DNA of 64,000 nucleotides from Polytrichum commune (taxonomy: Eukaryota > Streptophyta > Polytrichopsida > Polytrichales > Polytrichaceae): positions 20,555,666 to 20,619,665 of the forward strand of contig OX485807.1 in assembly GCA_950295325.1 (NCBI GenBank), given 5' to 3'. Shown here one piece after another: positions 7,532 to 37,305 of the stretch; the first letter of the stretch is position 1; the number at the start of each line of letters is the position of its first letter. The position numbers and the translations under genes were made by a program. The notes beneath the pieces were generated by a model. The model made no database searches. It worked only from the letters and a program-made list of their open reading frames with translations, and was not told where the DNA came from.

Positions 7532-8644
7532 TGGTCTATAGTTGGAAGTCCGGTGTTTGTATGGGACACGGAATTCATCCCACCTCCCAATCACGAGCTT
7601 GACCTCGGCCACACTCTTGGCATTGTGGGCAAGAGTTTAACCCTCAATGAAGGATTGGGAGACCAAAAAGATGGTGTGAAGGCTTTCTTGAGAAGGTTGT
7701 ATGTGTGAACAAATCAAAATTCGAAACCGTTTTATTCATACTCATGGAAAAATGCCAATAAATTATGTTACACTTAATAATAGTAGTCTTAAAAGCTACA
7801 CTAGATAGTCCTAGTGCTATGGGCCACAATAGTTATCAGTAGCCTATACTAATTATCATAACGCTAATTAATATGGGTCACATTAATCTTACATTCAATT
7901 ATCATTAATTCACAAAAGATTTATAGTAGAAATCAGCATGGACCACATTAGTTGTGTAGTTCTTAGACAATTAATGAGGGTGATTGTGTTTATGTTATGC
8001 TACATTTGTCATGTAACTAATATTCAACGTGTTGGTCAAAAATCTTCACGAAAACACAGGAGAAGAGCATGGGTCTTGGCCCATGTTAATTCCTCCTCAA
8101 CTAGAAAATTAGTGTGGTCCACGCTAATTATTTCGAAGCTTATTTTCCACCCACATGATTTAGTGTACTTAGGGCTAAGGACAAAACACCCAAATTGATG
8201 CAATGGCCTGCCCTTTTCTAACCACAACCTGAGTTCAAATATTAGCCACCATTCTAGCTTGCATGACATTACAGTGAGTATTGTATTTAGTGCGATATGA
8301 AATTCATGTCATTGTGGCTATTTTCTAATTACATTTTCTTTTGAATAATTCTACAAGTATTGTCACATATATTTTAAATTTGAATGAACCTGTGCCAGTT
8401 ATTGAAACAAAGTTATGCATCTTAACAATTTGGATAACGAAATATTGTCATGAATGATTAAAAATTGGATGAAAGATATCATAGTAAATGACAATAATTG
8501 TAACATTGTAAATCTAAGGTGCCCATTTTTATTACAAGAAATGTAAAATAATGTTAAGTTTGCATTTAGTGTTGGTGACACTACGCGGGTAGTTTACAAT
8601 TAGTATCAAGCAAGACAAATAGAATTGGTGACATTAAATACAAT
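7532..8644. other. Intergenic, no gene seen
   Basis: AT-rich sequence with repeated TTAGTGTGG/CACATTAG words. Short open frames have no splice-site or family support. I see no complete element. Confidence 0.5.
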
Positions 8645-8929
8645 CTCGGGGGGTTCACTGGCGAAAATCGTAGAACAACGTGCGATAAAAAATAAGGTCC
8701 AATATATTCATTGTAGATAAAGTTTATAAAAAATGTACATGTAAAATAGGGGATTTTAAAATAATGAAACATGTTTACATGTAAAATACCATCACATATA
8801 ATATTTTCAGGCTTTTTACATGTATAATACCATCACCTTATAATCTTTTATGCAAGGTAAATAACCCCCCCAATAAATAGGTCCCGAACGCACGTGTATG
8901 CAAATATAAGAGGGAGTGAACCCCCCGAG
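8645..8929. mobile_element. P-like MITE 1 (CTCGGGGGG ends, 8-bp duplication)
   Basis: The terminal inverted repeat is CTCGGGGGGTTCACT at the left and its exact complement at 8915-8929. The element is flanked by AATACAAT at 8637-8644 and 8930-8937. The 285-bp interior has no coding capacity and contains ACATGTAAAATA repeats. The termini match those of the large P-like copy B (right end GTGAACCCCCCGAG), so this is a non-autonomous member of that group. Confidence 0.9.
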
Positions 8930-8937
8930 AATACAAT

Positions 8938-11866
8938 ATTTAGTCTAGTACTCAACTATGGTGCAATGTGTCTCAAAAAGAGGGAGGAAAGATAAGAGGC
9001 ATGATCTACCCAATCTTGAGCTTTATATACTTATAGGAACTAAGAGCTGAAGCCCCCCTCAACTAGTCCCCAAACATATTGTTAACCGGTTCTCCCTTCA
9101 TGCCTTTGGGGTGAGTTAAGTGCTTTTAACTAACAATCAATGCTTACGAGTGAGAACATCGTGTAATAATACCTTTTAGAAGTATTAGATCTCCCATGGT
9201 GAAGTACTCTAGTCTTACAAATAATAGAGTCTAGTTGAATGAAAGTCTTCTAGTCGTACGTGGAGTTGAATCTAGTTGGAAATAATGAATGTTGCACCAA
9301 TTTGTTTGGGGAAAACTTCTACATCGACAAAAACAATAAACATTTGAACTCAGAAAATCATTTGGGGACATAACACTCCGGGGGGTAGGACAATCATTTG
9401 GGATAGAGGGAGTACCCGTTACACACCTCCCCACTCAGTGAGCTTCCAAGGTTGTTGTCTTTTGTAGGAGCAGTGGTGACAATGAAAGAATGAAAAAACG
9501 CTCGGGGCCACACTAACACTATGCCATTGTTTGGAACGAGGGGACATGTAAGCAAAGTTGGCTTGAAGAAAACATGTAATAAGAAGAAGGGATGGGGCGA
9601 TGCTAGGCTGGTGATTACACTCCCTTCCTACACATGCGCTAGTTTCATAAGCAAGTTAGGGCGTTTTACACATGTGACCAAGGGGTGTGAGAAAAAATGA
9701 TTTAGAATTTCTCGTGGTCATGGTTGGCAGTCCAAAGACGATGACCAAGAGGACTCCACGCTACTTTTAAAAGCCTTGGTTACATGACATGATTGTAGAA
9801 TGGATTTTAAGAATAAAAACAAAAACCACAAAATAAGTCTTATTTTGTGGTTTTATTTGCATTTGCTAAGAACAAGTCTTATTCAAAACATTTTTTTACT
9901 ACAAAAAAGATGTCCTCATGACACGACCATTGGCATTTTTTTGTTGGGTTCCCTACCACAAAGTCTAGGTGACCACCAAAAATTATCCATTTATGAACAT
10001 GTAAGATTTCATGCACTTTCTCATCCATGTATGACATTGCCACTCTTATTTTTGGTGACCTTGTGTAAAACAAAGAGGGACAACCACTCATTTCTCAACC
10101 AATGAGAGAGCTTAGAAAACAGTGGTCATGGTATTTGGGACTAGTGTAAATAAAGCTTATTTTATAAACCAATTTTTCAGCAGGTTCACCAAAAATGTGT
10201 CATTTTATGTCGATCCCCTTTGCACCTCCCACATTCATGACAAAATTTGGGTGAGAAAAGCATCCCCAAAACTTTATTTACGCACAAAACATGTCGTGAG
10301 AGCATACCTAATAAGTAATGTATTGTATCATTTGTGGCCATGCATAACATGACAAAACTCCTTGGTTGTGGTATGTGGGACCAAGTATCAAATAAGCATA
10401 GTTATCCTTTAATTTTGGGGGAGTCTTCAAACTGAGTATTGTGAGTTTTTTGACAAGCAAAAGTAAACTCTCGAAGTTTCTTTAATCACAGCCTCTTTCT
10501 TTGGAAAGAGGCCATCATGTAGCTACTATGTGATCATGTCATTGTTGACCTGTACATTCCAAGTGATGCAATTTTCCAAGTGTCATTAAGGCACGCTCAA
10601 ATTCCACTAGAAGAAAAAAAATTGTCCATTGCAACCATCTGTTGTGATTCGATCAATGCAACTCACGATGAGGAAAAATGCATAAATAATCATTTTGGTT
10701 GACAACTGAAGGTTTTTGGCTGCAATTTTTGGACAATGAGTAACCCAAACCTTCCGGTTGACAACGATAATGATTTATATAAGCACTAGTACGTCTTGCC
10801 GTGATTCACAATGAACAAATCTTTTCCTAATGTTTTGTGAGGCAATGAACAAGGAGAACCAGCTGCTAGTTACAGTTTGAGAAATCACCGATTGAAGTTC
10901 AAAACTTTGGGAATATTCCCAATCATTTTGAAGGAATATATAGGATGTAAATTACTTCGAAATGATAAAGAAAAACCAAAAGAAGTCAACACGTAACCGG
11001 TTAGAGTTGGAAACACTAGGATCTCGACCGGTTATGCCCAAAAATCTCTCCGGGTATTGCTGCGAGGTGGTTTTGGGGTTCCGGCATTTGGATCTCAAGC
11101 CTCATGTGTGCATTTTAGTATTCAAATGAAACAACTATGTACCACAATTTTGCAATAAAATATACTTTATCACAAATATGTTAAACGTTTTCAATGCACG
11201 TGAATATTGGAGAAGGCATTTGCAACACCCATTTTCGCCATTATTTCCATGACGAAGGACCTTTTACTTAATCAAAGAACATTCTTGCAAATCTCAATGC
11301 TCCAACTTGCCGTTCCCAGTTCCGGCTACATTGTTTATGGTATTTAGTAGGCACGTGCCCTATTTGCGAAGGGCCTAAACGAGATAACTAGAGGTCTCAA
11401 AGTGTTACATCCAGTAATTATCAACATGACACTATTCATAATCATAGGTAACTTTCATAATATGTCGGTGCATCCATTCTATGTTTGGCATTTACCATGG
11501 ACTTTCACTATCTTACCTTCATGGAAGAAACTTAGAAGATAGGAAAAAATTGATGCATGTACAAATAATGAATAGTGTTGATATTTTCAGTATAACCAAT
11601 GCTATGAACAATATTTTCACTGTATAATATTGGGATGAACAATGATTCATGAGAGTAGTGCCAATATGGATTACGATTCGCAAGAATAGTGTTGGGAGTA
11701 TAACCACCCAATTTTACAAGTATTAGTTTGAATGTATGAATAGTAAATGAATATTATTACTTGTTGCAAGGGGGCCACGTAATATAATTGATATATTCTA
11801 GGGTCATGGAACCAATCCACATGGTTGAGTAACGTTATGTTTTTAAAGTGAAGATTTATTTACATT
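8938..11866. other. Gene-free intergenic tract
   Basis: No gene is supported. A 33-bp near-perfect palindrome (AAACCACAAAATAAG arms) sits at about 9824-9857. The part around 10,840-11,100 shares words (GGAAACACTAGGATCT, GCCCAAAAATCTC) with 49,670-49,740, marking one dispersed repeat family. The rest is AT-rich with no pairable ends. Confidence 0.5.
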
Positions 11867-13859: not shown

Positions 13860-15640
13860 CAATTAAAAATCCCAAATCAACACAAAAATTTGGTCAAAGT
13901 AAAAGGCGGCCGAGAGTGGCCAAGGCCCGGGCCTTCTATTGAATAATAACCCTATGCTAACCCTAAGTTCACCTAGTCGTCCTTTCTGTGTTTGTCCCTC
14001 CGTGTTTGGTGTTTCTATTGTTTTTGCTAGGTTTCCGTTGTTGCTCTTACCCCGGGAACGTTGTCGTTGCTCTTTCCTGACTGCATTCCTATTCTCTTGG
14101 CTAAGTTTGGTTGCGCTTGTGCTTCGAGGTGGCTCTTCGAACTGAAGTATTTGCCGATCCGATCTCCTCTCGTTTGGTGTATGTCTACTTGTGTTGTGTC
14201 GCGCACCTCTCCATGAGGAGTGCCCGAAACACCATGGGCACAAGGGGGACCCCGGAGTGACACCCGGGACTTGTGGCGCTATTGGTGAGAGGGCCCAAGT
14301 GATCCTAGTTTGGGTGAGGGCCCCGGGCGTTGGGAACGCCTCCCACCCACGGAGACTAGGAGGTATTAGGGTAAGGCCATAAGCTATGCGTAGCTCATGG
14401 CGTGGTGATTCTAGAATGCTCAAGATCACCTCAATCAGAGGTGTGAGCTAGGAGTTAAGGCCATTTGAGTGGGGCGCTGTCCCGGGACAGCGCCCTGGTA
14501 CAGCAGTGCCTGGGAGTGATTCCCAGGACTGCCAAGGTTCAAACAGGCATAACTTCCTCAAGACTTGCCCGAATGGGGCAAGTGAGGAGTCCATCGGCAT
14601 CTACGTGAAGCGTAGATGAAGATGGAGTGGTTGGTTGTTATGATAAGACATTATACAAGGAAGTTATGATGGTCTGAAGCTGCTGGGGGGGTTCTAGGCC
14701 CAGCAGCTAAAGGAAAATGTCCACTTGGCCCCAACTCTTGGTAGAGAGACAAGAGGTGGGTTGACGGTGGGGTAGGGGCCCCGTGTAAATTCCTAGAGGC
14801 TTATATGGGTGAGGTGGTGTGGCCTCACCCACCCGAGGCTGAACGGCAAGGCCTCCATGGGCATTGGCCCATTGTGAAGCCATAGTTGCCTAGTATGGTT
14901 CGGGTTGTTGTAGTGTTGCTCCGGCAATGCGATGATCAACATGGGATTGGACTTCCATGGATGGAAGTCCACATCTAGGAATGGGTTACCGATTAAGGGG
15001 TGAGTCCCGAAAGCAAAGTAGGAGGGTTGGTTCCCTCCTATGAACTATAAGGTCCGGGGTGGGAGGAGCTAACCATTAGCATGGCGGAATGCGAATGGTT
15101 AGCGCTCGTAACCTTTGCTAGAATTGAAAATTGGCAAGATTGTCAAGGGGGGCTAGCAAGGGTTGCGACATGTTGAGTTGTCGTTGATGTTCTTGCATCA
15201 AGCTGATTGATCTCTGATCTGCTCTCGGAGGTTTAGGGTGTGAGATGCTTTTGCTTAATCTGCTTGTGCGCCTACTTCACAAGTTATAATAGGAGTATCA
15301 CCTAGGTATCTTTCAATCAGAGCAAAGACTTGAAGATACTGATTTTGGTGGAGGAGGACCATTTGCGTTCTTCAATCGCAATCGCCATCGCCATCATTGT
15401 GTTTGGAGCCACTTCGTAGCGTTCATCGACATTGTATTGTTGTTGCCGTTTGTGCCTGGCGCGCTTTTTGGAGCTCCCGGGAGGTGTCGAATTTGTGGCT
15501 TCAGGGATTTTGATCCAAGTCGTCTTCCTCAACTACGAGCTAAGGCGAGGCTGCCATTGGCAAACCTATTCGTTCTGCAATGTGGCATTCATTTTTCTAG
15601 GTACTTATTTTCTCTTTGATTGATTGGATGCGAGTGAGAG
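13860..15640. other. GC-rich, hairpin-dense insertion in copy A
   Basis: This block differs sharply from its AT-rich surroundings and has no counterpart in copy B. Between 14220 and 15102 a perfect short hairpin occurs every 40-80 bases. The palindrome GGCGCTGTCCCGGGACAGCG sits near 14473. Other stems include ACTTGCCC (14562), GACTTCCA (14950), GGAGGG (15021) and CTAACCATT (15069). No protein is recognised in either strand. It may be a structured leader or LTR of a retroelement, or an unusual hairpin-rich repeat. Boundaries are uncertain. Confidence 0.55.
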
Positions 15641-24547: not shown

Positions 24548-24558
24548 GTTGCCCATTG

Positions 24559-24616
24559 GGGAGTGCTATCTTGTGAGCGGTGAGCAGTGAGCGATGAGCG
24601 GTAATTTGTGAGCGGT
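24559..24616. repeat. Left terminal inverted repeat of the MULE
   Basis: GGGAGTGCTATCTT is followed by TGAGCGGTGAGCAGTGAGCG and related heptamer-spaced TGAGC units. Further TGAGCATG/TGAGC motifs occur at 24745-24830. These repeated motifs are candidates for transposase binding sites. Confidence 0.88.
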
Positions 24617-25240
24617 GAAGAAAACAAAATATTTGGTAATAGGACCCCGAGTATCCTATAACCGTGGCCTAAAGAAATATTTTTTTAGGGTTCAATAATA
24701 AGAAGATTGGGGAGGACAAATAATATGAATGCTAGATTGCAAGTAGTGAGCAATGAAAAAGACCAATATGTACACGACTCGGGGTTGCTAGTATGTGAGC
24801 ATGTGAGCATGCGAGCGTGAACATGTGAGCCTTCAATTTTTTCCCGGTTATGGTTTGTAAATCCGTTGGGGGCCTATGACTGTGGAATTACATGTAAGGG
24901 TCTATAGTCCAAATGAACAACAAATGAGAATGTTGCTATAACAATTTTGTACTAAAAATGAACTAATATACATTTAATTGTTGAGATAATAATAATGTAA
25001 TTGGAGACAATGTGTAAGCAAACTCATGTTGAAAACAAGTGTAGCATGTTAGAATGTCTCACTATAATACACATCAATGTAAAATTTAAATACATCATAA
25101 CACCATCATGAGGGTGACATTTACGAAGTCCAAAACATAAAGAACAACAAAAATAGATTGTAGATATAAATCGGGTAGTAGATTAAAATTGTTGAAGTTC
25201 TTGGAAATCAAATTTCAAAAATCAAATCATCAATACAAAC

Positions 25241-25486
25241 TTAAATATCGTCGGACTCAGATGCACTGAGTTCAAAATAAGCACATACTCTAGTATCATA
25301 ATATCTACGAGGTGAAGGTGAAATTGAAGATGAAGTAGATGAAGCATTAGCATAAGCTTCAGCTAAAGCCTCAGCATACACAGGGAGGCTCTGAGGACTA
25401 AGAGAGGGGCTTCTCAATAATCCACGGTGCCGATAAAATGACGAGATTTGTATCGGCGATGGATTCATCCAACTACAAACAACAAA
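25241..25486 (-). other. Possible extra 3' exon downstream of the methyltransferase gene
   Basis: After a plausible acceptor (TTTGTAG, minus strand) there is an open frame encoding a Ser/Pro/Ala-rich tail ending ELSASESDDI. It does not join the last recognised exon in frame: the phase-1 donor at TTAT|GTGAAT gives a stop. It could be a shifted terminal exon of the same gene or noncoding sequence. Confidence 0.35.
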
Positions 25487-25573
25487 CCATGTATTAGAAT
25501 ATGTAACAACAAATTAGAATACAAAATCTAGAATTTGCAATTGAAGTTGTTGAGAAAAAAACAATGAAAAAAC

Positions 25574-28500
25574 TTATTCACATAAGTTAAGAAGTGCGGC
25601 GTCTTCTATTGGAGTATCATCATCAAAGTCCATACCATCGCATGAGGTATCATTTGTAGGTGTTTGAAGAGGTTTTAGTACCTCATCAAAGAGTTCGGCA
25701 TCACTTTCTAATGCTAGAATATGACGATTAGATGAATGAGCCGCTCTAATAGAAGAACCTGGATGAAGCAAAACATTAATTAGAAAAATACGAACATTGA
25801 AGTATGAATTAAAAAACATATGAACAAATAATTGGATACTGTAATATACAATACCTGTAGAAGCAGTCATGTCTGCCACAATACCGCCTACAGGACTCAA
25901 ACCATGAACAAATAACTTCATTAAAACTTCAGACTTCTCCTTTGCACCCCTCCATGGCTTGCCATCTCTTTGTCTACATAATTGAATTTCCATAGTAATA
26001 GAGTTGAAGAGAACGTCATCTGTGGCTAAATCGACCTCAGGAATTGAAGGATGTATGGTGATCAGAAGTTCTTGAGGTTGCCTCGCAATGGGAATTGAAA
26101 ATGATCGAACCAATAACAAAGCCTTGAACTTCAAAGTCTGAAAGTCAATATAAAATTGAAATTAAAAAATATACAACACATAAAAACAAATTCAAATATG
26201 AACCAATCAAAATGAAATGTCATAATTGCTACTTACATTTTTGGACGGATTCATAGGATTTGCCAAGTGCAAGGAATTAATGATAGTCCACTCATCCTTG
26301 ATTTTGAACTTATAGTTCTTGAAGAATCCTGCCACTTCTCTCTTCATGGCAGAACTGTCAAGATAAAACAAAAGGAATGCTCCATCATCATGAAGATAGG
26401 TAACAACAAATGCCATCAATATGTTGAGAAAACTTGGAATATTGGCATTCCAAGGGGGAATTTGAGATGGCGGATCCGAGACACCTGGAACCCAAAGACC
26501 ATCTGGGTAATCCGCAACAATGAGGTCCACAACATGTTTCTTTTGCAATTGGCCATCAAAAAAAAATTGTCTACCTTCACCAACCTACAAAGATAAAATA
26601 TAAATATTACAATTCATGAATAAAGACGACAATTAAAATTTAAAATTAAAATAACGTAACAAAATACGAGTGAAACTTTATAAAACTTGAATAAAGTAAA
26701 AACTGTAAAATAAAATGAACTCACCTTTGATAGAAAAGCCACAATGTCGTCATATGGTGCACGAAATGTACCTGTTTGCTTCTTATCCTCGATAATCCTC
26801 ACAAAAGAATCATTCAAGATTAAATCCGAAGATGTATGATTTGCAGGTAAAGGAGGCAAGATATTCATCATACGTCTAAGCTTGGGAGGCATATCCAAGG
26901 TAGGAGAAGGGGTTGTTTTCTGCCGCTTTGAAGTATGAAACGTTGCCTCTAGATTTGAAGAAGAAGGTTCAGTAACTACAAGGTTGTTGAGACTGCTTTG
27001 AATTGGAGCATCCTCATCGCTATCATGAATGAGGAGGATTGATCTTTTAGGCTTAGACTTTTTTTTTTGGGCATCTTGGCTGCATCCTCATCCATTATAG
27101 AAGGAACAATTTTAGTTGTACCCTTGAGGGCGGGTTGAATGGAATTTCGAAGGGCAATATCAAAAGTGGGAGGTGATTTAAGAAGACAATCCAAATACCA
27201 CCCACATTTTTCAAAATGCACAGGATCCCAAGATTTCATGATCCCCTCTGTGAACATGCATTCTTCACTTTCGATATCCAAATAATTAGCCAAAAAAATG
27301 GGAGATTTGGAAATGGCTTTCGCAGGAAATAAGACATATTTGAAGTACCTATAAAACACCCTTCGCATGGGCGGATAAAAATTGAGTTGCTTGTCAATGT
27401 TATGATTTTTGTGAACTCCCTTATCCACACCGAATTCACGAAAAAATGCAGTATCCCACAATGATATGCGCATTGCCTCCACATAATCAAAAATAGTGGG
27501 CAAAGGATCCATACCATCTGGAAGGTAGTTGATGGACACATGCATATAAGCTACAGTAGCATCAAAGAGCTTCTCGGTCTCAATAGCCAACTGCCAAATA
27601 CAAAATAAAGATTAGAAGAATTAAATGATTGAAAAAATATTAAAAATAAATTAAAAACACAGACCAAAAATAAATGAACCAAACATAATAGAAGGACAAA
27701 AATTATCACTTGAGCCCACCAAGTAGCTTTATGAAGCCACTTAGGAAACTCTATATCATTGAATTTTGGTTTCGGAAACTTGAGAGCCTCACGAAGAGCA
27801 GGGGGACTGTTCCACCTCTCAAGCCACTTAATCTTCATAGATGTGTCCATTGCCGAAGTTGCTAACATCCAAAGTTTTTCTTGAGTCATCTCAGGGTTCT
27901 CATCGTGAGTTTCATAATGAGACTTCACCTGCTCTAAGAACATAGGATAATGTTTAGGATCCGCAATGGGAAGTTGTTTCTTCAATTCCGAATGAGAAGT
28001 CAATCTCACCCTCTCAACAACTTTGGAAACAAATTCATCTACTGCACTCGAAGTCCAATGCGCAGGATCAGGATATTTCTCATAAAATTTCCTTTGAGCA
28101 GTAGCAGCAGCATCTCCCAACTCTTGCTACACCAACGAAAAAACATACAAGAGTATGAATAATCACACACTATAAAAATAAGATGCAATAGAAAATATAG
28201 TTATAGAAATCGAAATAAAAAGAAAACAAGAAAAATATACAAGAAAACAAAAATCGTGAAAAACGAATACTTCAGAAAAAATAACCTGGTATAGAAATCC
28301 ATTAAGAGCCTCAACAGTCAAAGTAAACCAAGTCCTATGTTTGGATTTTTGTTTGGCATCAGCGGCAGTAAGATCTTCTTTAGAAACAAGTTTCTCAAAA
28401 TATGAAAGTGGTTGTCCAGCAATGCTTTGAATGCGGAAAAACTTATGAACAAGATTGGTACAAACATGAGATTTTTGGTTCCTACTGTCAAAACAAAACA

Positions 28501-31500
28501 TCCAATGATAAGCCAAAGAAAAGAGATATACAATAAAAAAAAAACTAAAAAAAGAACCAAATGAACCGAATAAATAAAAAGAGAAGAATGAAGTAATTAC
28601 CAATTGACTTCATGTAAAGTTGCCAACATGGTTGTAATATCTCCTTTGACGTCCAAAATAATACTTTCAACAACATAATGCCAAACCGGATCATGTGTGT
28701 GATCTCGATTAATAATGGGCAACCATGCTTGCAAACGGTAATTTCCGTCCCACACCATGAACATTTTCCCAGAAAAAACTTGAGGTCCTCATCAGCTTGC
28801 AATATTTTTTCAAAGGCATCATTAGCCCTCACCTAATTTTCACTCCAAGATTCAATGATACTATCGGTAACATCTACTGTTTTCCCCTCATTATTTTCCA
28901 AGGCCACATAAAAAACCCCATTGCCCTCCATATAACCACAAGCAACAAAATGTGCAGCCAGGTTCATAACGTCATTTTTTAGAAAAGGCCTTACAACAGG
29001 CAATGCAATCATTCGACATAGTGGAATGTTGAATTTTGATTTTGCCCTTGGTTGATACCTCAACCGTTCAAGACGGGAAGATGTGTTGACAGTTTCTTTC
29101 TTAAAAAATGCATGCAATTGCATCTCCAATTGCTCTTCAGAAAGATGTACAACTTCCAAATCTAAAGCACAAAACATATCACCCATTTGAAAAACAAAAA
29201 TAAATCAAAAGAAATATATACATAGGAAAGAAATCATATATGCAAACTAAAACAAAATGAAAAAACATTAAAGAAAGTGAGAGTATACATAATAGACAAA
29301 ACCACATATTCCCAAAAAGTCTAAATTTTGAATATGGGTGGCCGTTAACGGCCACTCTTCTTAGAGAAAAAAAATGAAGGAAATGAATGCATACACACAT
29401 GCATGCATACATGTAGAAACAAAATTTGAAATATGAATAAGGGTGGCCGTTAACGGCCACCTTTTTTGAAGCCGAAAAAAATGAAAGAAATGGGTGTATA
29501 CATGTAGAAAGAAACCCTTATGAAAAAAAATCCGAAATGTGAACAAAGGTGGCCGTCAACGGCCACCCTTATTGAAGGACAGAAAATGAGATAAATGGGA
29601 GTGTACATGTAAAGAGAAACCCTTATGAAAAAAAATCTGAAATGAGAATAAGGGTGGCCGTTAACGGCCACCCTTATTGAAGGAAAAAAAAATGAGAGAA
29701 ATGGGTGTGTACATGTAGAAAGAAACCCTTATGAAAGAAAATCTGAAGTGAAGATAAGGGTGGCCGGTAACGGCCACCCTTATTGAAGGACAGAAAATGA
29801 GAGAAATGGGAGTGTACATGTAAAGAGAGACCCTTATGAAAAAAAATCTGAAATGAGAATAAGGGTGGCCGTTAACAGCCACCCTTATTGAAGGAAAAAA
29901 AAAATGAGAGAAATGGGTGTGTACATGTAGAAATAAACCCTTATGGAAAAAAATCCGAAATGTGAAAAAGGGTGGCCGTCAACGGCCACCCTTATTGAAG
30001 GACAGAAAATGAGAGAAATGGGTGTATACATGTAGAAAGAAACCCTTATGAAAGAAAATCTGAAATGAGAATAAGGGTGGCCGTTAACGGCCACCGTTAT
30101 TGAAGGAAAAAAATGAGAGAAATGGGTGTGTACATGTAGAGAGAAACCCTTATGAAAAAAAATCTGAAATGAGAATAAGGGTGGCCGTTAACGGCCACCC
30201 TTATTGAAGGAAAAAAAAATGAGAGAAATGGGTGTGTACATGTAGAAAGAAACCCCTATGAACAAAAATCCGAAATGTGAATAAGGGTGGCCGGTAACGG
30301 CCACCCTTGTTGGAGGAAAAAAAAATGAAGCAATTGAGTGCATACACGAAGAAGAAAACACATATGGAGAAGAGTCTTAAATTTCAAGGACAAAAAATTT
30401 AAGGAAATGTGTGTATATTTGAAGAAAGAAACACATATACTCAGAAATATAAGATGCAACAAAGGGTGGCCGTTGACGGCCACACTTTTAGATGAAACAG
30501 ACTACAACACATAAGTGGGCATCATAGAAAGGGTGGCCGTTAACGGCTACCCAATTGGAAGAGAAACTCACCTTCATTTGAGTCGCTTTCCGGAGTTGCA
30601 GCTTCTTTGTCGCTCTTGCTCGTTTTGTCTCTGTGCCCACGTCGCCGCCTGGAACTTGTACCAGCATCTGCATCCTCCATGGTGCGCGCTCTTGCTTCTT
30701 GCGTATGTTGTTGCCGCCGCACTTCGAAAGAGGATGTCTGAAGACATTACGAAGAGTATGGCTTCAAGAGATTAGGGTAAGTCGGACTCTAAAAAAAAAA
30801 AAAAAAAACAAGTAAAAATTTGGTAGATTTCAGTCTATGGAATCTTTGCTATAACTTTTTCAAATATCCTAATTAATTTCCACAAAAATCTAGTGCATAG
30901 ATTTAAGCCTTGCCATTCACTCCATTTGTTTTCAGAATTATTGGATATAATATCAATTTTACATAAATCGTCAAAGTCTACTAAAACTAATATGGTTAGA
31001 TTTTCTGCATAAAATCTTCATGTTTTGAAGATTTTAGAAGAATCTAAGATGCTCTAATTGTTTTTTTGGCTCTAAAACAAGCAAAACAAAATTATTTTGT
31101 TCATGCTATATACCGTTGGAATCGTATTTTCGGTGTGCACAATATAGTATATATTATATACCTCTAAATTGATTTTCATTTTAAATTTCTTCTCTTATCA
31201 TTTCTTTCGTACAACTTACCTCCAATTCCGCCTCAGAAGATTGTTCTTCTTTTTCGTATTGTGTGGCTTGCTCTTCATCGATGCCTTTATCATAATCTTC
31301 CTCGTTTTTCTCTTCTTCATCTTCTTCATTGCATTCAGAGACGATATGTGGTTGAGCTTCACATGTAGGAGTTTGGTGTTCGAAAACATCTTCCGTTATC
31401 ATTTCGCATGCCACAATATCTTCGTACGTCAAATTCCTTGTTGTACCTAATAGGTCCACTCATTTCATTCGAGAAATACGTCTATTCATTCTAGCCCTTG

Positions 31501-32160
31501 ACAATTGTCTCTTACTTGAAAAACGAAAGCTACTTTTTCGCCTATTTTTTTTCCTACCCTTCACTGGAGTAACCACTGCTAACATGAATAAATGACGTTC
31601 TTTTACATTTAAACGCATTCAGCTACCCTCTGCACTACATTGTTACTCTCAACAACATACATTTCATGGATGTTAATAATGATTCGGCCACTAAATTTAT
31701 GAACTCCAAACAGAAGCCACGGTCTCAGCATAGATAGGGAGGCTTCATGAAGGTGATGGACTTGCTAGAAATTTTGGTTCTTCAAAAGAAGATCGCCAAC
31801 GTCACATTACTAGCACCTGACAACATAGATGTGTTAATACCCATCATAATTCAACTAAATACATACATAATATAATACAAATAAAAATTATACAATCAAC
31901 CATATGAATATTTCGAACAAGATAAACAAACAACATCTTGTTAAGGAATACATAACAAAATAATTTCAAATCAAACAATTTCAGAAGCTGACTTACCTTT
32001 TTGTTTCTTCTGTTTTGTGAACTCGTCTTCATTTCCGACTCCGAAATACCATCGTCTGCATGCTCTCTGCACCTTCATCATCCTCCGCCTTCCTATGTCT
32101 TCTCTTCTGCCTCACTAGTGTTCTCTCTACATGTTCCACTATCATTGTTGTCTATGATAT
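25574..32160 (-). pseudogene. Beta-class DNA amino-methyltransferase gene carried by the MULE (broken copy)
   Basis: Exons, in transcript order: a first exon ending at 31997 (AAAAAG|GTAAGT, start unresolved); 31578-31220 (very basic then very acidic); 30737-30572; 29161-28601; 28484-28286; 28126-27710; 27590-26725; 26584-26237; 26137-25855; 25758-25574. Phases agree throughout once two single bases are allowed for. From the ATG at 30680 the frame is ~989 residues. The middle is a helical region I do not recognise. Exon 26584-26237 holds VDLIVADYPDGLW, matching motif IV (usually DPPY). Exons 26137-25574 hold SPVGGIVADMTASTG and SSNRHILALESD, matching motif I/II of methyltransferases with IV-before-I order. 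Breaks: TGA in exon 31578-31220, TAG at 28833-28835, one-base losses in the A/T runs at 28773-28778 and 27059-27068. Confidence 0.72.
29179..30560. repeat. Palindromic ~105-bp minisatellite filling an intron
   Basis: About twelve copies of a near-perfect palindrome, GGTGGCCGTTAACGGCCACC, occur near 29346, 29450, 29558, 29662, 29767, 29871, 29979, 30083, 30189, 30294, 30474 and 30540. The spacing is ~105 bp, with one ~180 and one ~65. Between them runs a conserved spacer with AATGAGAGAAATGGGTG and GAAACCCTTATG. The array occupies almost the whole intron between donor 30571 and acceptor 29162 of the methyltransferase gene. Variation (GTCAAC, GGTAAC, GTTGAC) falls mostly in the central bases, while the GGCC/GGCC arms are kept. 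Confidence 0.92.
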
Positions 32161-32781
32161 ATCTTCTACCACTCCACTTTCATACATTTGTTTAGTGTTT
32201 AGAGCTCACTTAAACCTAGTGCACATTACGATCATCAGTGTTGCAATTGGCGTCCAATGATCAAGTTGTTTTAATTCGTCTTTCACTCTGCTTCTATTTT
32301 TATTATATCCGCCAAATTTCTCTGATATCCCAACCTACCATATTGACTTTGTTCTATTTATAATGGCCAATCATTTACTTTGCCGGCCAATTTTAATTGT
32401 TCCTGCATCTACATCCAGCCTACACAGTCATATTTTAAAACTCTGCCAACTTGTTTATTATTTGACGCCGTTTTCTCCATGATATCTGTGCCCGCATTTC
32501 TCCCATGTGATAATCTTATATTAGACAACTCCTTTGTGGGTTCAAGTTTCCTATGGCTTAGTTTCTAAAGGAGATATTTTTTGGGATCTGATTTAGGATT
32601 CTATATCTTCCTTGCAAATATTCTCTGTCTACTATTATGATCTGTCTTCTTTTGTATTATTGGATGCTATGGTATCACCTCTTTTAATTTACATCTATTA
32701 TTATATTCTCCATCATTCAATACAAAAACGATGTTGATCTAAGATTATTGTCATGTGTTGTTCATCTTTTTCTTCTTCTCC
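32161..32781. promoter_or_regulatory. Divergent intergenic region between the two MULE genes
   Basis: This ~0.6-kb AT-rich stretch separates the minus-strand methyltransferase gene from the plus-strand transposase. Both promoters must lie here or in the unresolved first exon. I see no motif I would name. Confidence 0.4.
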
Positions 32782-35700
32782 ATGGCTACCATTAGAGCTC
32801 ATGGATCTTTTGTTCCCTTCATTTTGCCACTTCAAGATGATGGTCATGTCAATGTCTCAGAGGATTTGCTTAGTTTGAGATTCAACCTCCAGATAGGAAC
32901 CATGTATTCAGAGCAAGAGATGTATTCTGCAGATGGAGAGGTGTATGAAACGGTTTTGGTTCAAAAAAACAGAACCGAGGTTGGTTTTATGTGGATCTTA
33001 GGACCTGGTTCATTTAGGGTAATAGGTCTTTCTGAATCTCAGATGCAAGCTTCAACTGTCATCTTGACAAACGAATCCGGTACATCCACCGTTCAAATTC
33101 CCTATGTCGCACCTGTTAAATTTGAACCCCCTGATGACTGTGTGTTTGTGCTATCATATTCAGAAGATGACATTTGTGCATCTGTTGATCTTTCAAACAC
33201 ATCGCCGTTTCCATTTAAAAGTCTTCATTCGAGTTCTTCACAGCTTCCTATACATGTAGCCAAATCTCCATGCGGTCCTATGTACAAGAGTTTGGTTCCC
33301 CAGCTCTCACCTTCTCAACGTCTTCCACTACACCCTTCACCTTCATCTATAGGGTTGACTATCGTTGATGCTTTGAAGCTTACAAAGTCTAGAAAAATAT
33401 CAAAGTCAGATCTCGCATCCATTGATTTTGATAGTATAGATGTTCATGATGTCAAGTACTTACCATCTTCTTTTAATGGTGATGTTTTGTTTCTCTTACC
33501 CCCTGTGACACTTAAAGCTCCAAGTACGTATGGCCGCTCAATGGACGGCATGGACAAGATGTGCGACGGTCACCCTTGGTGCACCACCAAAACCACCAAT
33601 ATCCAAAATGATTTTGGATTGTCCTTCCGGCGCTCCACTTGTGCTGGTCATCTCCAATGTCCTAATGACTACTGTGATTACATGAATTGCAATGGGGGCC
33701 TCCGGAACAACACTGAATGGGCCAGTTCAACTCCTCTCCCATTTGCTGTGGGTAATGTTCCTCCTTCTAGGTCCACTGTCGAGTGTAAGGTATGTCGTTC
33801 CACACCTGTGTGCATTGGTTTATGTCATGCTCGAATCCTATACATCCATTCCACATCTGTTCGAATGTCCAGGGCTTGCATTCATATTGGTGTACATGAT
33901 CACCCTGTGGCCAATGGCATATGCCGTGAGTCATTGGACATGGCATACCAGTGCGTTGCAAATGAAATATTGAAAACACCTACAGCCAAAAATTTAGCCA
34001 TAGTTATGGCAGCAAGCAAACAATTCTTGGCCGATTACCTTCTCAAATCTCCCGCAAATGTCGAAGGCCATCACTTGGTTGGTTCATCCCTAGAGGTCGT
34101 CATGGACAAATTCAGCACTCTTGCGTCCCCGAATTGTCGTAACTTTGTATCCGGATCAAAGCGTTTTTTGCGTAGTGGAATGAGAACTATGGATAGTATT
34201 ATGGCACTCAAAGACCACTCTGCTTTCAAGTTCGTCCATGGTAGTCGGTTTCCAGGGCAGTCAAAGGACAAAGTGTTTGTTTTCAAGATGTCTGTAGACC
34301 TTCCAGGTAGTGGTGTGGAGCTTGTGAAGAGGATGCAAGTCGGTGGGGACATGGAGAATTCATGGATTATGTTTGACCATGTCAAACGTTTGAAGGACTG
34401 GACGACCATGGCTTGCCATGTGTAGGACAGTCGATACTGTAAAGTGTTGACTATTGCGTGTTGTGACATGCAATCTAAAGATGGTGCAGCACAAATTCTC
34501 TTTTGGGAAAATTTGAATAATGTCATGGCAGAAAATGGTGTACCAAACGTAAACTTCAAAGGGTTTATGGCTGATAGTGCTCAAGCTAATTGGAATGCGG
34601 TGAGGGCGATTTACGGGGATGGTGATCCAAGTCTACCCATGGTTGCACGTGAGCGTACATGTCTTTTCCATTGGTCTGCAAGCTTGGATAAGGTGACCCA
34701 AAAGTATATCAAACCATCCTTGCAGTTTCAACACAAGCAAATATGCAAGGATTACAAAGACGCAAGAACAATGGACGACGCCGAGACTAAGTATCATGTG
34801 ATTCATTCTTGGTGGTTGTCATCCGGAGCTGCCTCAGAAGAAGGCATGCTTGGCCTTTCAGAGTGGTTGGGTTTTTGGCACTTTCGTTACAGACAATGGG
34901 GTGGTCATATGCTATTTGTAAGTACATATCAAATTTCATTCTTCAATGTCATTCATTTTTCTTCCACTGTTATATATATCTTTTATTTTTCTTATCCTCA
35001 TATTTGTGTGTTGTTCATAGGATATGACAATAGAAGAACGTGCGGAAATGCCAACATGCAACCTTGCAGAGACTGTACACAACAAATGGCTTCAACAGTC
35101 CGGCAACAAGATGACTTGTTTATATGAAGCTATAGTGGACGACATGATTCGTGCGTTCATGCAAATTGCAAATTACCGGACATGGTTGAAAGGGGGGTCT
35201 GATGGTAAAGGTCCTGATTCAGCATCCTTGAAACTCAAAGCGGCTACCAGGTGTGGAGATCCAAAAATGTTGGCCGATGCCATGAAGTCTTATCCAGGGG
35301 CAGAAGACGTCAACACGAGAGATTGTGCATTGGAAGGGTCAGAGCTCTTTGGTTCCACCAAACGCAAACTCAACCTACCACCGGGTGCTGATTGTGATTC
35401 TCATCGACCCGACAAAGTGAACTATTCCATTCCTCGTCCCAACACCCGAGCAACTCGTCAACGCATAGAGGAATCGTTGAGTTCTGCAATTCATGGTGTG
35501 GCTCATACTACATCCGTGTTAGAGACTGATTGTCTTGCTTCTAAGTGGCACATTGCAAGATTGCCATCCAACTCAGCCAAGCGTTGTTGGGCACTGCAGG
35601 CCATTACAGGGACTATGTGCAATGCCAAAGTCGGGACTGGGAAACATGGCACACCTGCTCCAACATACAAAGGGCTCAGGAAGGAATTTCGCTCTCCCAA

Positions 35701-36388
35701 CAATGTGGAGTATGAATTTTGGTTTTGTCCTGACGACATCAAACGTTGTGTGAGTGGCAGTAAGAAGAAATATGTGTTGGATTGGTCTATAGTACCCAAC
35801 ACGTGGCCAGTGAATATAGGTACCAATCTATCGAGAGAGGAGGTTTTGGCACTTGAAGATGCTGGATTTCAACTACATCAGAGGGAGGCATTGTCTCCTC
35901 GTCGTAGGTTTTCAACAATCGCAACTCTTCCCATCCCTCGATCGCATTTTTCTATGCCACCAAACCCAGACGCCCACCCTACATTCAGATTTGGGAAGAC
36001 AGTTCGTCGTAATCCAACAGCACCTCTGGCGGATCACAAAAACAAATGGGAGAGCGCCGGACTCATGGAAGGTTACTATGTGGTTGGGGTCACTGCCATT
36101 CCATATCTGGGCTTTGGAGTGATAATCAACATTGTCTCCAAGCAGGATATCACCTATCATGTCACAATTGGCGATATCCCGCATTGCACATGTCCAGATT
36201 TCACGAAAATGTCCTCTCATGCATTGGGAAAGAAAGGAAAATGGGTGTATTGTAAACATCTTTATTATGTGTTTAGATTTTTGTGCAAGGTGGATTACGA
36301 GAGTGACAAGTTCATTCATGCACCTACATATACCTATAATGAGGTCATGCAACTACTTGAACTTGCTAGTATTGTAGAATGTGAGTAG
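32782..36388 (+). pseudogene. MULE transposase with GCM-type zinc domain and SWIM finger (one stop)
   Basis: Exons are 32782-34917 and 35021-36388, separated by a 103-bp GTAAGT...CATAG intron in phase 0. The full frame would be 1,167 residues, interrupted only by a TAG at 34423-34425 (ACHV, stop, DSRYCKV). I start at the ATG at 32782 because the frame upstream opens only at GTG. Residues ~249-385 form a Cys/His cluster (DGHPWC, RRSTCAGHLQCPNDYC, CKVC, HIGVHDHPV) like the GCM/WRKY-GCM1 zinc domains known to be fused to MULE transposases. The DDE core has MFDHVKRL (D~532) and FMADSAQANW (D~598), then CLFHW. A SWIM finger CTCPDF...WVYCKH lies at ~1101-1126. It would recognise the TGAGC-rich termini and catalyse transposition. 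One nonsense change makes it probably inactive. Confidence 0.85.
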
Positions 36389-36599
36389 TATTGCAAGTGT
36401 TATATTAAGCAACATATATTTGAATGTCAATAAATGACATGTTTTTGTTTGGATTATTATAATAAAAATTAGCAGTGGACTGAAAGTATTTCAAATGATT
36501 CAGTAACTTCATTTTTATTTAGACTGCGACCCAACCATGTGTGGTTTGATTGATTCACACGGATAAATAATATCACGTTTCTAAAAATAATTAATAGTT

Positions 36600-36790
36600 A
36601 AGAAGATTCTACGCACATTCGCGTAGTAACGTCTTCTTGGTATCCGCCTATAGATTATTCCTGCTTTATCACTAGCTCAATTTGGGATAGCACCAGTCAA
36701 TGTAACCAACCGGATTCGAACCTGGGTTGATCCAGACTTAATACCAGTCTCTTACACAACTCGCATCCACAGGCGGATGTCTCAAAACCT
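36600..36790 (-). mobile_element. tRNA-like SINE candidate within the MULE
   Basis: On the minus strand an exact B-box GGTTCGAATCC follows an A-box-like GAGTTGTGTAAGAGACTGG by a tRNA-like distance. It is followed by ~90 bp of tail. It does not fold as a full tRNA by eye and its borders are unclear. Confidence 0.4.
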
Positions 36791-36840
36791 AGTAGCTACC
36801 TACATATTCAGTATTTCTAATATATAATTTTATTTCTTTT

Positions 36841-37085
36841 GTAGATTATGGGCCTTTATTCAACCCGTGAGCAGTTTGAGTGGCTCACAATTATGGCACC
36901 GACATATATGTATAATGAGGTTATGCACCTACTTGAATTTGCTGGTGTTGTAGAATGTGAGTAGTTGTACAAGTGCTAGTTGTAGCTACATGTATAAGGA
37001 TGTCAATATATGACATGTATTGGTTTGAATTATTATAATAAAAATCAGCAATGGATTGAAAGTGTTCTAAATGATCCATGGAAAT
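36841..37085 (+). repeat. Second copy of the transposase terminal exon and 3' end
   Basis: A plausible acceptor TTTTGTAG is followed by an open stretch ending TYMYNEVMHLLEFAGVVECE and then TAG. This closely repeats the true C-terminus TYTYNEVMQLLELASIVECE at 36,330-36,388. The downstream ~150 bp (GTCAATATATGACATG, TTATTATAATAAAAAT) are duplicated too. It could be an alternative last exon or a dead duplicate. Confidence 0.75.
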
Positions 37086-37213
37086 AGGGCCCTTTCACTT
37101 GTGCTTCATTTAAAATATTGGCAATTTATAATTGAAAATATGCAATTAATTTGTCAAAATTTTGGTTGTAAACCCTAAACCCGTGTGTCTTTACTAAATT
37201 TGGATTCATTGCT

Positions 37214-37294
37214 CATATGTTACTGCTCATTGCTCATGTGTTACTGCTCACCGCTCACCGCTCACTGCTCATCGCTCATAAGATAGCTTCCCTC
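37214..37294. repeat. Right terminal inverted repeat of the MULE
   Basis: Plus-strand GCTCACCGCTCACCGCTCAC and neighbouring GCTCAT units, ending ATAAGATAGCTTCCCTC, mirror the left end at 24559-24616. The target duplication GTTGCCCATTG follows at 37295-37305. Confidence 0.88.
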
Positions 37295-37305
37295 GTTGCC
37301 CATTG

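Follow-up and report, generated by a model that had tools for sequence, protein, structure and literature searches.

We analysed a stretch of 64,000 nucleotides from the moss Polytrichum commune (OX485807.1), hereafter the window, which contains a 12,736-bp transposable element at positions 24559-37294. The element carries a transposase gene and, divergent to it, a multi-exon gene (the second gene) whose product of about 970 amino acids ends in a domain related to N6/N4-type DNA methyltransferases. A preliminary description, made from the window's letters, had proposed a Mutator-like element (MULE) carrying a beta-class methyltransferase gene that was either captured recently or serves to mark or protect the element's own DNA. 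The Mutator-like element with an integral methyltransferase-like gene held up, recent capture did not, and self-marking was weakened. Copies elsewhere in the genome are denoted by locus numbers (L001, L003 and so on).

The element and the family it belongs to

The two exact copies of the 11-bp target-site duplication GTTGCCCATTG lie precisely at the two ends of the element. With at most one mismatch this 11-mer has three matches in the window against 1.94 expected from shuffling, and it is unremarkable by itself. The terminal arms form an inverted repeat of 38 nt that is 92% complementary, and the duplication and mirrored TGAGC ends of the preliminary description are thereby confirmed. A second element (L008 together with L003) has like ends and, as read by eye, its own 11-bp duplication, CACATTGTAAC. 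The 11-bp duplication was found in both elements with both ends read and fits the entries of 8 to 11 bp tabulated for MULEs in PMC6446971 (here and below, papers are cited by PMC number from excerpts). Terminal inverted repeats (TIRs) were read at both ends in the window copy and L003 and at a single end in L001, L009, L010, L015, L032, L036 and L037, with a terminal sequence common to L003, L015, L032, L036 and L037. A 68-base query from the left terminal region gave at least 40 scored genome matches among 604 candidates.

Open transposase frames, free of stops over 741-794 amino acids, occur in other genome copies; the window copy is broken by an in-frame TAG. For a SWIM zinc finger, a common though not universal feature of Mutator-like elements, a CxC...CxH pattern is visible and the Pfam score was 12.6-13 bits (E 0.075-0.1) against a cut-off of 19.6. 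The GCM domain that had also been proposed found no Pfam match in the profile search, and what stands of that assignment is a transposase with a SWIM match below the cut-off.

The window copy of the second gene is broken as well, by an in-frame TAG and by two frameshifts, of which the one near 27090 is common to the window copy and L001; the window element is a dead copy. In computed models the second gene is open throughout in L005 and L011, and has at least one frame break each in L007, L013, L003 and L010. The features of the window are given in the table below; the exon borders of the second gene are computed, and its exon 1 and 5' end are uncertain.

The 408-Mb genome was searched with the transposase (best 150 matches scored of 1,935 candidates) and with three N-terminal queries from the second gene (best 151 of 1,007, 151 of 1,213 and 150 of 1,275), and all genome counts are lower bounds. 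A divergent methyltransferase-like gene was found within 16 kb of 117 of the 150 scored transposase copies, whereas random placement gave 0.67 on average and never more than 3 in 200 trials, and the gene is therefore integral to the family and not a chance passenger. The gene lists for this count were compiled by hand, with 21 of the 150 third-query rows and 15 further places entered. By type, the 117 paired genes comprised 90 of the L003 type, 14 of the window type, 8 of the L036 type and 5 of the L015 type or other. An earlier count within 12 kb, which included fewer gene types and used 125 and 135 rows of two N-terminal match lists, had paired 100 of 150 transposases. The preliminary description had regarded the gene as a passenger should other copies never contain it, and the count shows otherwise. 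Three L003-type copies were identical over 184 residues, which suggests that these elements moved recently. C53:15540-29170 and C2:19223737-19237367 showed identical scores and matching spacing, and C53 looks like an assembly duplicate of the C2 stretch. On the plastid contig C8, trnR-CCG lies between rbcL and an accD-like frame, an arrangement that points to a seedless land plant; L029, another plastid stretch, did not enter the analysis.

Mutator-like elements can pick up genes of their host, and the second gene could in principle be such a passenger, which we regard as very improbable. It co-occurs with the transposase in one fixed orientation at the frequency given above, is under purifying selection (see below) and exists in many lineages. 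Moreover, the five genome matches to the Pfam family N6_N4_Mtase (PF01555) above the cut-off were three on C10 and C12 and two L036-type members, in a search that ran exon by exon and could miss an intron-split host gene. The supposed recent capture is likewise at odds with the age of the gene family, whose members are 26-57% identical between lineages.

Table. Features of the element in the window
Feature	Position	Strand	Basis or remark
Target-site duplication, left copy, 11 bp GTTGCCCATTG	24548..24558		exact match
Left terminal inverted repeat region, TGAGC runs	24559..24640	+	aligned arm 24565-24602
Second gene, exon 8: last part of motif I, with the acidic E.D residues and the C-terminus	25577..25758	-	spliced model
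Second gene, exon 7: C-terminal half of the methyltransferase as far as motif I (ADMTASTG)	25855..26137	-	spliced model, profile match
Second gene, exon 6: methyltransferase motif IV region, VADYPDG replacing DPPY	26237..26584	-	spliced model
Second gene, exon 5: middle region and linker	26725..27590	-	spliced model; frameshift near 27090
Second gene, exon 4: middle region	27710..28126	-	spliced model
Second gene, exon 3: SHVxTNLVHxLxRxQ motif	28286..28481	-	spliced model
Second gene, exon 2: conserved N-terminal domain of unknown family (IPLCRM..VRP...DGN(H/Y)RLQAW)	28601..29162	-	in-frame TAG 28833-28835, frameshift near 28770
Palindrome array, 105-bp tandem repeat; would be intron 1 given the candidate first exon	29314..30566	-	repeat and shuffle analysis
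Second gene, candidate first coding exon (MEDADAG...), ends at GT donor	30571..30680	-	by eye; frame joins exon 2
Transposase, exon 1	32782..34903	+	computed; in-frame TAG 34423-34425
Transposase, exon 2, CxC...CxH (SWIM-like) motif	35034..36385	+	computed
Right terminal inverted repeat region, GCTCA runs	37206..37294	-	aligned arm 37250-37287
Target-site duplication, right copy, 11 bp GTTGCCCATTG	37295..37305		exact match

Some further features were observed in and around the two genes. A 183-nt stretch including the transposase C-terminus is duplicated in the window (36320-36502 and 36896-37078, 83% identical); L003 has a weaker second copy (8743-8925, 39% at the protein level), and the duplication may be a family feature. 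Between the window duplicates (36640-36800) a tRNA-T-arm-like sequence, GATTCGAACC, was noticed by eye and is perhaps an insertion resembling a short interspersed nuclear element. Upstream of the second gene, a short conserved exon ending in SESE(M/L)KT...NKKVSQ (window 31844-32074, minus strand; L003 3659-3976, minus strand; by eye) is kept in two lineages with second genes only 31% identical; it could belong to the 5' end of the second gene or be a small third gene. An acidic tail, SASES(D/E)D, is conserved 3' of the computed stop (window 25241-25472, minus strand; L005 8640-8840; by eye) and is possibly the last exon. In L004, Copia-type reverse-transcriptase/RNase-H-like frames were seen by eye at the end of the methyltransferase-like gene (8011-9173). 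Outside the element, the window contains a 24-bp perfect palindrome, GGGCGCTGTCCCGGGACAGCGCCC, at 14472-14495; GCTGTCCCGGGACAGC occurs also in L035 at 2631, and this palindrome perhaps belongs to another repeat family.

The second protein: a methyltransferase fold with an altered motif IV

The C-terminal 240 residues or so of the second protein matched PF01555 in all eight members scanned, including the window copy, in a scan that allowed E up to 10 and in which the best match (E 6.5e-6) was at the curated cut-off. L036, a deep lineage at C1:9.66 Mb, matched over positions 1-216 of 221 with E 1.1e-7, and both L036 and L037 exceeded the curated cut-off. L004 and L014 were excluded from the family alignment because their spliced models ran into other sequence. 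A family profile found DpnA in PDB (5hfj, E 1.3e-4), and its hhalign match to phage methyltransferases, at 94.8% probability and E 5e-8, spans 62 columns about motif I. In beta-class enzymes motif IV precedes motif I, and the second protein has the same order. The spliced model and the profile match bear out the earlier claim of a divergent multi-exon gene with a beta-class domain. Strong N6_N4_Mtase matches of up to 98.5 bits were also found on the small contigs C10 (4592-5212 and 15117-15353) and C12 (29682-30278), which are perhaps bacterial sequence.

Across the family alignment motif I, as DLTAGTG or a variant of it, is kept along with the acidic E.D residues, and motif IV is altered. It reads DYPD in the window copy and L001, EYPD in L005, L007, L014 and L011, DYPN in L012, EYHD in L013, QFPD in L003, L009 and L010, DIPE in L015, L032 and L033, DIPD in L037 and DIPY in L036, the last being nearest to the canonical form. 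The canonical motif, (D/N/S)PP(Y/F/W), was present in none of the 16 copies read, not all of which are independent lineages, and the aromatic residue was absent in 15 of them. In the four phage relatives that were fetched, motif IV was DLPY in three and DPPF in one, with the aromatic residue kept in all four. On the strength of this motif, the fold is probably kept to bind DNA, and perhaps S-adenosylmethionine (SAM), with catalysis lost or changed, and a DNA-binding pseudo-methyltransferase appears likelier than a self-marking enzyme.

The main rival explanation is nevertheless an active amino-methyltransferase that would write N6-methyladenine (6mA) or N4-methylcytosine (4mC) on the element's palindromes, whose core is GTTAAC; such a self-mark would protect the element or lift its silencing. 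We consider it unlikely. The homology to N6_N4_Mtase is clear, motif I and the acidic residues are those an enzyme would need, and since three of the four phage relatives have DLPY, the first proline appears dispensable there; the DIPY of L036 is close to it. Furthermore, 4mC enzymes of bacterial type are active in rotifers and in the liverwort Marchantia, where the enzyme is of bacterial origin, whereas changing SPPY to APPA abolished the activity of rotifer N4CMT (PMC8885841). The loss of the aromatic residue in 15 of 16 copies argues against catalysis in most of the family, as does the distribution of constraint along the protein described next.

The ratio of nonsynonymous to synonymous substitution rates (dN/dS) of the second gene was 0.14 for L003-L010, 0.16 for L005-L013, 0.165 for L005-L007 and 0.18 for L007-L013; the gene is under purifying selection in the better-preserved copies. 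In these four pairs the methyltransferase part (0.17-0.36) is less constrained than the N-terminal part (0.07-0.12). For pairs of 50-58% identity, silent sites were saturated.

The N-terminal domain of about 250 residues is strongly conserved, with 39 invariant columns in nine sequences. Searches of Pfam, PDB and PHROG gave it no significant match, and there was no phage match; tblastn at E <= 1e-3 found no relative among the stretches of IMG/VR (42) and GTDB contigs (65) that hold its peptide patterns. A ParB origin, or a phage-type fusion of ParB and methylase, was considered on account of the motif DGNHRLQAW and found no support in Pfam, PDB or PHROG; a comparison with small phage ParB profiles by hhalign was negative for a ParB fold. 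The signs pointing that way were the resemblance of DGNHRLQAW, judged by eye, and a match to DUF1015, which is kin of ParB, in one of nine members at E 0.029.

Palindrome arrays and a possible exchange of modules

The non-coding parts of the second gene contain tandem arrays of long palindromes, the sequence of which differs between lineages. The array of the window is built on the palindrome GGTGGCCGTTAACGGCCACC; GCCGTTAACGGC occurs in it 12 times with at most one mismatch, six times exactly, and some of these sites lie in perfect palindromes of up to 32 bp. In L005 the array consists of GGTGCCGTTAACGGCACC in a unit of about 234 bp, upstream of exon 2 and again in a later intron. L003 has two types: a 64-bp unit contains CCCTGTGCGTTAACGCACAGGG, and a 32-bp unit, which occurs also in the transposase intron, contains GTTTGGGTCGACCGACCCAAAC. 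The array of L015 carries GGGGTATTGGCGG/CCGCCAATACCCC, and those of L031 and L033 carry GTGTCTCGG-NN-CCGAGACAC. The centre CGTTAACG is common to three lineages, whose arms differ and are symmetric in the consensus.

At 10 of 14 loci and at 1 of 8 loci of a further set, 11 of 22 in total, at least one array had a best inverted repeat above those of all 60 dinucleotide shuffles, with several arrays per locus tested against only 60 shuffles. The eight-locus set includes two loci without an array and two transposase-side pieces, and the array loci are partly related (window with L001; L003 with L009 and L010). In L033 the strongest inverted repeat was equalled in 3 of 60 shuffles. Uniformity was higher in the palindrome cores than in the flanks (0.96/0.75, 0.97/0.83 and 0.91/0.56 for 28, 19 and 22 sites), a comparison that is biased, as the sites were picked by core similarity and the flanks were ungapped.

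It was found that the tested palindromes occur 70 (window), 490 (L003) and 259 (L005) times in the genome, with no occurrence of any of the reversed-pattern controls. Among the first 50 listed of each, 42 of the window palindromes were within 6 kb of a window-type exon and none near L003-type genes, and the other eight adjoined window-type pieces as judged by eye. Of the L003-type palindromes, 45 were within 6 kb of L003-type genes and none near window-type genes; of the L005-type ones, 44 were within 6 kb and all 50 within 8 kb of L005-type genes. As the palindromes are nearly absent elsewhere in these lists, a protein binding them would meet mainly its own lineage.

The arrays might also be neutral minisatellites that expanded by slippage in introns, with functionless palindromes. 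The half of the loci without a significant inverted repeat and the unit length, which varies from 32 to about 245 bp, fit such an origin. Against it stand the long dyad symmetry reached by distinct units in several lineages, the centre shared by three lineages and the greater uniformity of cores than of flanks, and we judge this account quite improbable.

The two genes of the element disagree in their relationships. In five elements read on both sides, the pairwise identity to the window copy was 95% (L001), 93% (L003), 77% (L015) and 46% (L005) for the transposase, and 95%, 31%, 38% and 50%, respectively, for the second protein. Among L003, L015 and L005 the order is reversed: by its transposase the window copy goes with L003, and by its second gene it is nearer L005. 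Similarly, the second protein of L036 is 26% identical to that of the window, with a range of 26-29% over the six proteins compared. Its gene is divergent to a partial transposase that is 91% identical to the window's (C1:9652578). Since transposases that are 91-93% identical carry second genes that are only 26-31% identical, the simplest reading is that gene and array may be exchanged between elements as a swappable cassette. Within the second gene, the synonymous divergence (dS) between L003 and L010 falls from 0.51 at the N-terminus to 0.22 in the middle and 0.045 in the methyltransferase part, which points to recombination inside the gene.

This disagreement also bears on whether the arrays are bound by the transposase, or by host factors in transposition, replication or as enhancers, with the methyltransferase-like protein unrelated to them. 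One palindromic array lies in a transposase intron (L003 6776-6927), and palindromes are generic sites for dimers. On the other hand, the window and L003, with transposases 93% identical, have arrays that differ in arms and unit length, an unrelated second palindrome is present in L003 (even though one of its arrays shares the centre), and the arrays track the lineage of the second gene. We therefore find this alternative rather unlikely.

Proposed self-recognition and its relation to known systems

Taken together, we propose a transposon of two modules, the first comprising the transposase and the ends, and the second a cassette of the divergent methyltransferase-like gene and its palindrome arrays. 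The second protein would bind the palindromes as a dimer and so recognise elements of its own lineage, its methyltransferase fold holding DNA, and perhaps SAM, instead of methylating. Once bound, it may counteract host silencing or regulate the element, as VANC does for the VANDAL elements of Arabidopsis. Because specificity would reside in protein and array, drift or an exchange of cassettes would make lineages independent of one another. As a whole, we give this explanation a probability of about 50%.

Several observations weigh against it, in addition to the limits on the shuffle and core comparisons given above. Eleven of the 22 loci fetched showed no significant inverted-repeat array, and among these is L011, the gene of which is open and for which 1.4 kb upstream of exon 2 was fetched. 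The arrays are intronic or adjacent to the gene, and their co-location with it is expected anyway; five of the 50 listed L003-type palindromes (C1:461704-462618) had no gene match nearby. For 33 of the 150 transposases no methyltransferase-like gene was found. The dN/dS values of 0.70 for L001 and the window copy and 0.67 for L003-L009 (14 changes) show no clear constraint. The retained motif I and acidic SAM-binding residues are ones that an enzyme would need, and with the DIPY of L036 activity is possible in that copy. Finally, no MULE transposase family of Pfam matched at E up to 1, 5 and 10, and because no MULE profile matches, the filing of the family among Mutator-like elements is provisional.

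If the proposed self-recognition is correct, transposons arrived at sequence-specific anti-silencing repeatedly, starting from unrelated proteins and following one evolutionary route, in which a protein and its tandem target arrays diverge together. The genome would then offer many natural protein/target pairs for studying how specificity changes, the proteins would possibly form a new class of DNA-binding proteins, and it could be tested cleanly in this family whether silencing can be undone by a methyltransferase fold that lacks the canonical catalytic residues.

No report of this transposon family was found among the titles listed in open-access literature searches (ParB/methyltransferase/MULE; N6-adenine/Mutator-like/moss). 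The main text of a survey of MULE diversity names no methyltransferase, moss, Physcomitrella or ParB (PMC6446971), and the words methyltransferase, moss, bryophyte and bacterial are absent from a 2026 review of gene capture in plants (PMC13317346).

The C-terminal domain is homologous to prokaryotic and phage beta-class N6/N4 methyltransferases such as DpnA, CcrM and RsrI, with the same order of motifs IV and I; the moss protein differs from them in its changed motif IV, its introns and its long fused N-terminal part without a significant library match. A cassette that moves specificity between elements would also resemble the specificity subunits of bacterial restriction-modification systems. 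DIRS1-like elements carry a methyltransferase domain and belong to another superfamily than the moss element. Retrotransposons of dinoflagellates and charophytes similarly encode a protein of DNA-methyltransferase type, but of the C5 family, whereas the moss element is a DNA transposon with an amino-methyltransferase fold (PMC5890265). The virus-borne elements Mariner-2_PGv and Mariner-1_OLpv likewise carry a methyltransferase domain, in another superfamily, and the excerpted text mentions neither palindrome arrays nor cassette exchange for them (PMC3627910).

The closest likeness is with VANDAL and VANC, and the comparison drawn in the preliminary description was apt and is strengthened by the tandem palindrome arrays, which that description does not mention. 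Both are Mutator-like elements, the moss family provisionally so, with a conserved transposase and a much less conserved second protein (PMC5735166, PMC10398659), VANA being more conserved than VANC (PMC5735166). VANC binds tandem-repeat motifs that lie in VANC and VANB introns and also upstream of VANA (PMC5735166), its binding causes loss of DNA methylation, and it diverges together with its motifs while the transposase is conserved (PMC5735166; PMC10398659). In the moss, tandem-repeat motifs that differ between relatives likewise occupy introns and other non-coding parts, at the 11 loci described above. The parts themselves are different. VANC carries DUF1985/DUF287 (PMC5735166), to which the profile searches found no match here, and the moss protein has an N6/N4 methyltransferase fold instead; the moss motifs are long palindromes, in contrast to YAGTATTAY for VANC21 and AGTTGTCC/AGTTGTAC for VANC6; and VANDAL elements have 9-bp or unstated duplications and TIRs of 46-174 bp (PMC6446971), or are termed non-TIR (PMC13317346), as compared to 11 bp and short, TGAGC-rich TIRs here. 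The odds are thus about even that the moss family works like the VANC system without being one. More tentatively, and somewhat short of even odds, it may be a second, independently built system of this kind, in which a bacterial-type amino-methyltransferase fold in a plant transposon has become a sequence-specific DNA binder, non-catalytic or re-tuned, with gene and arrays moving as a specificity cassette.

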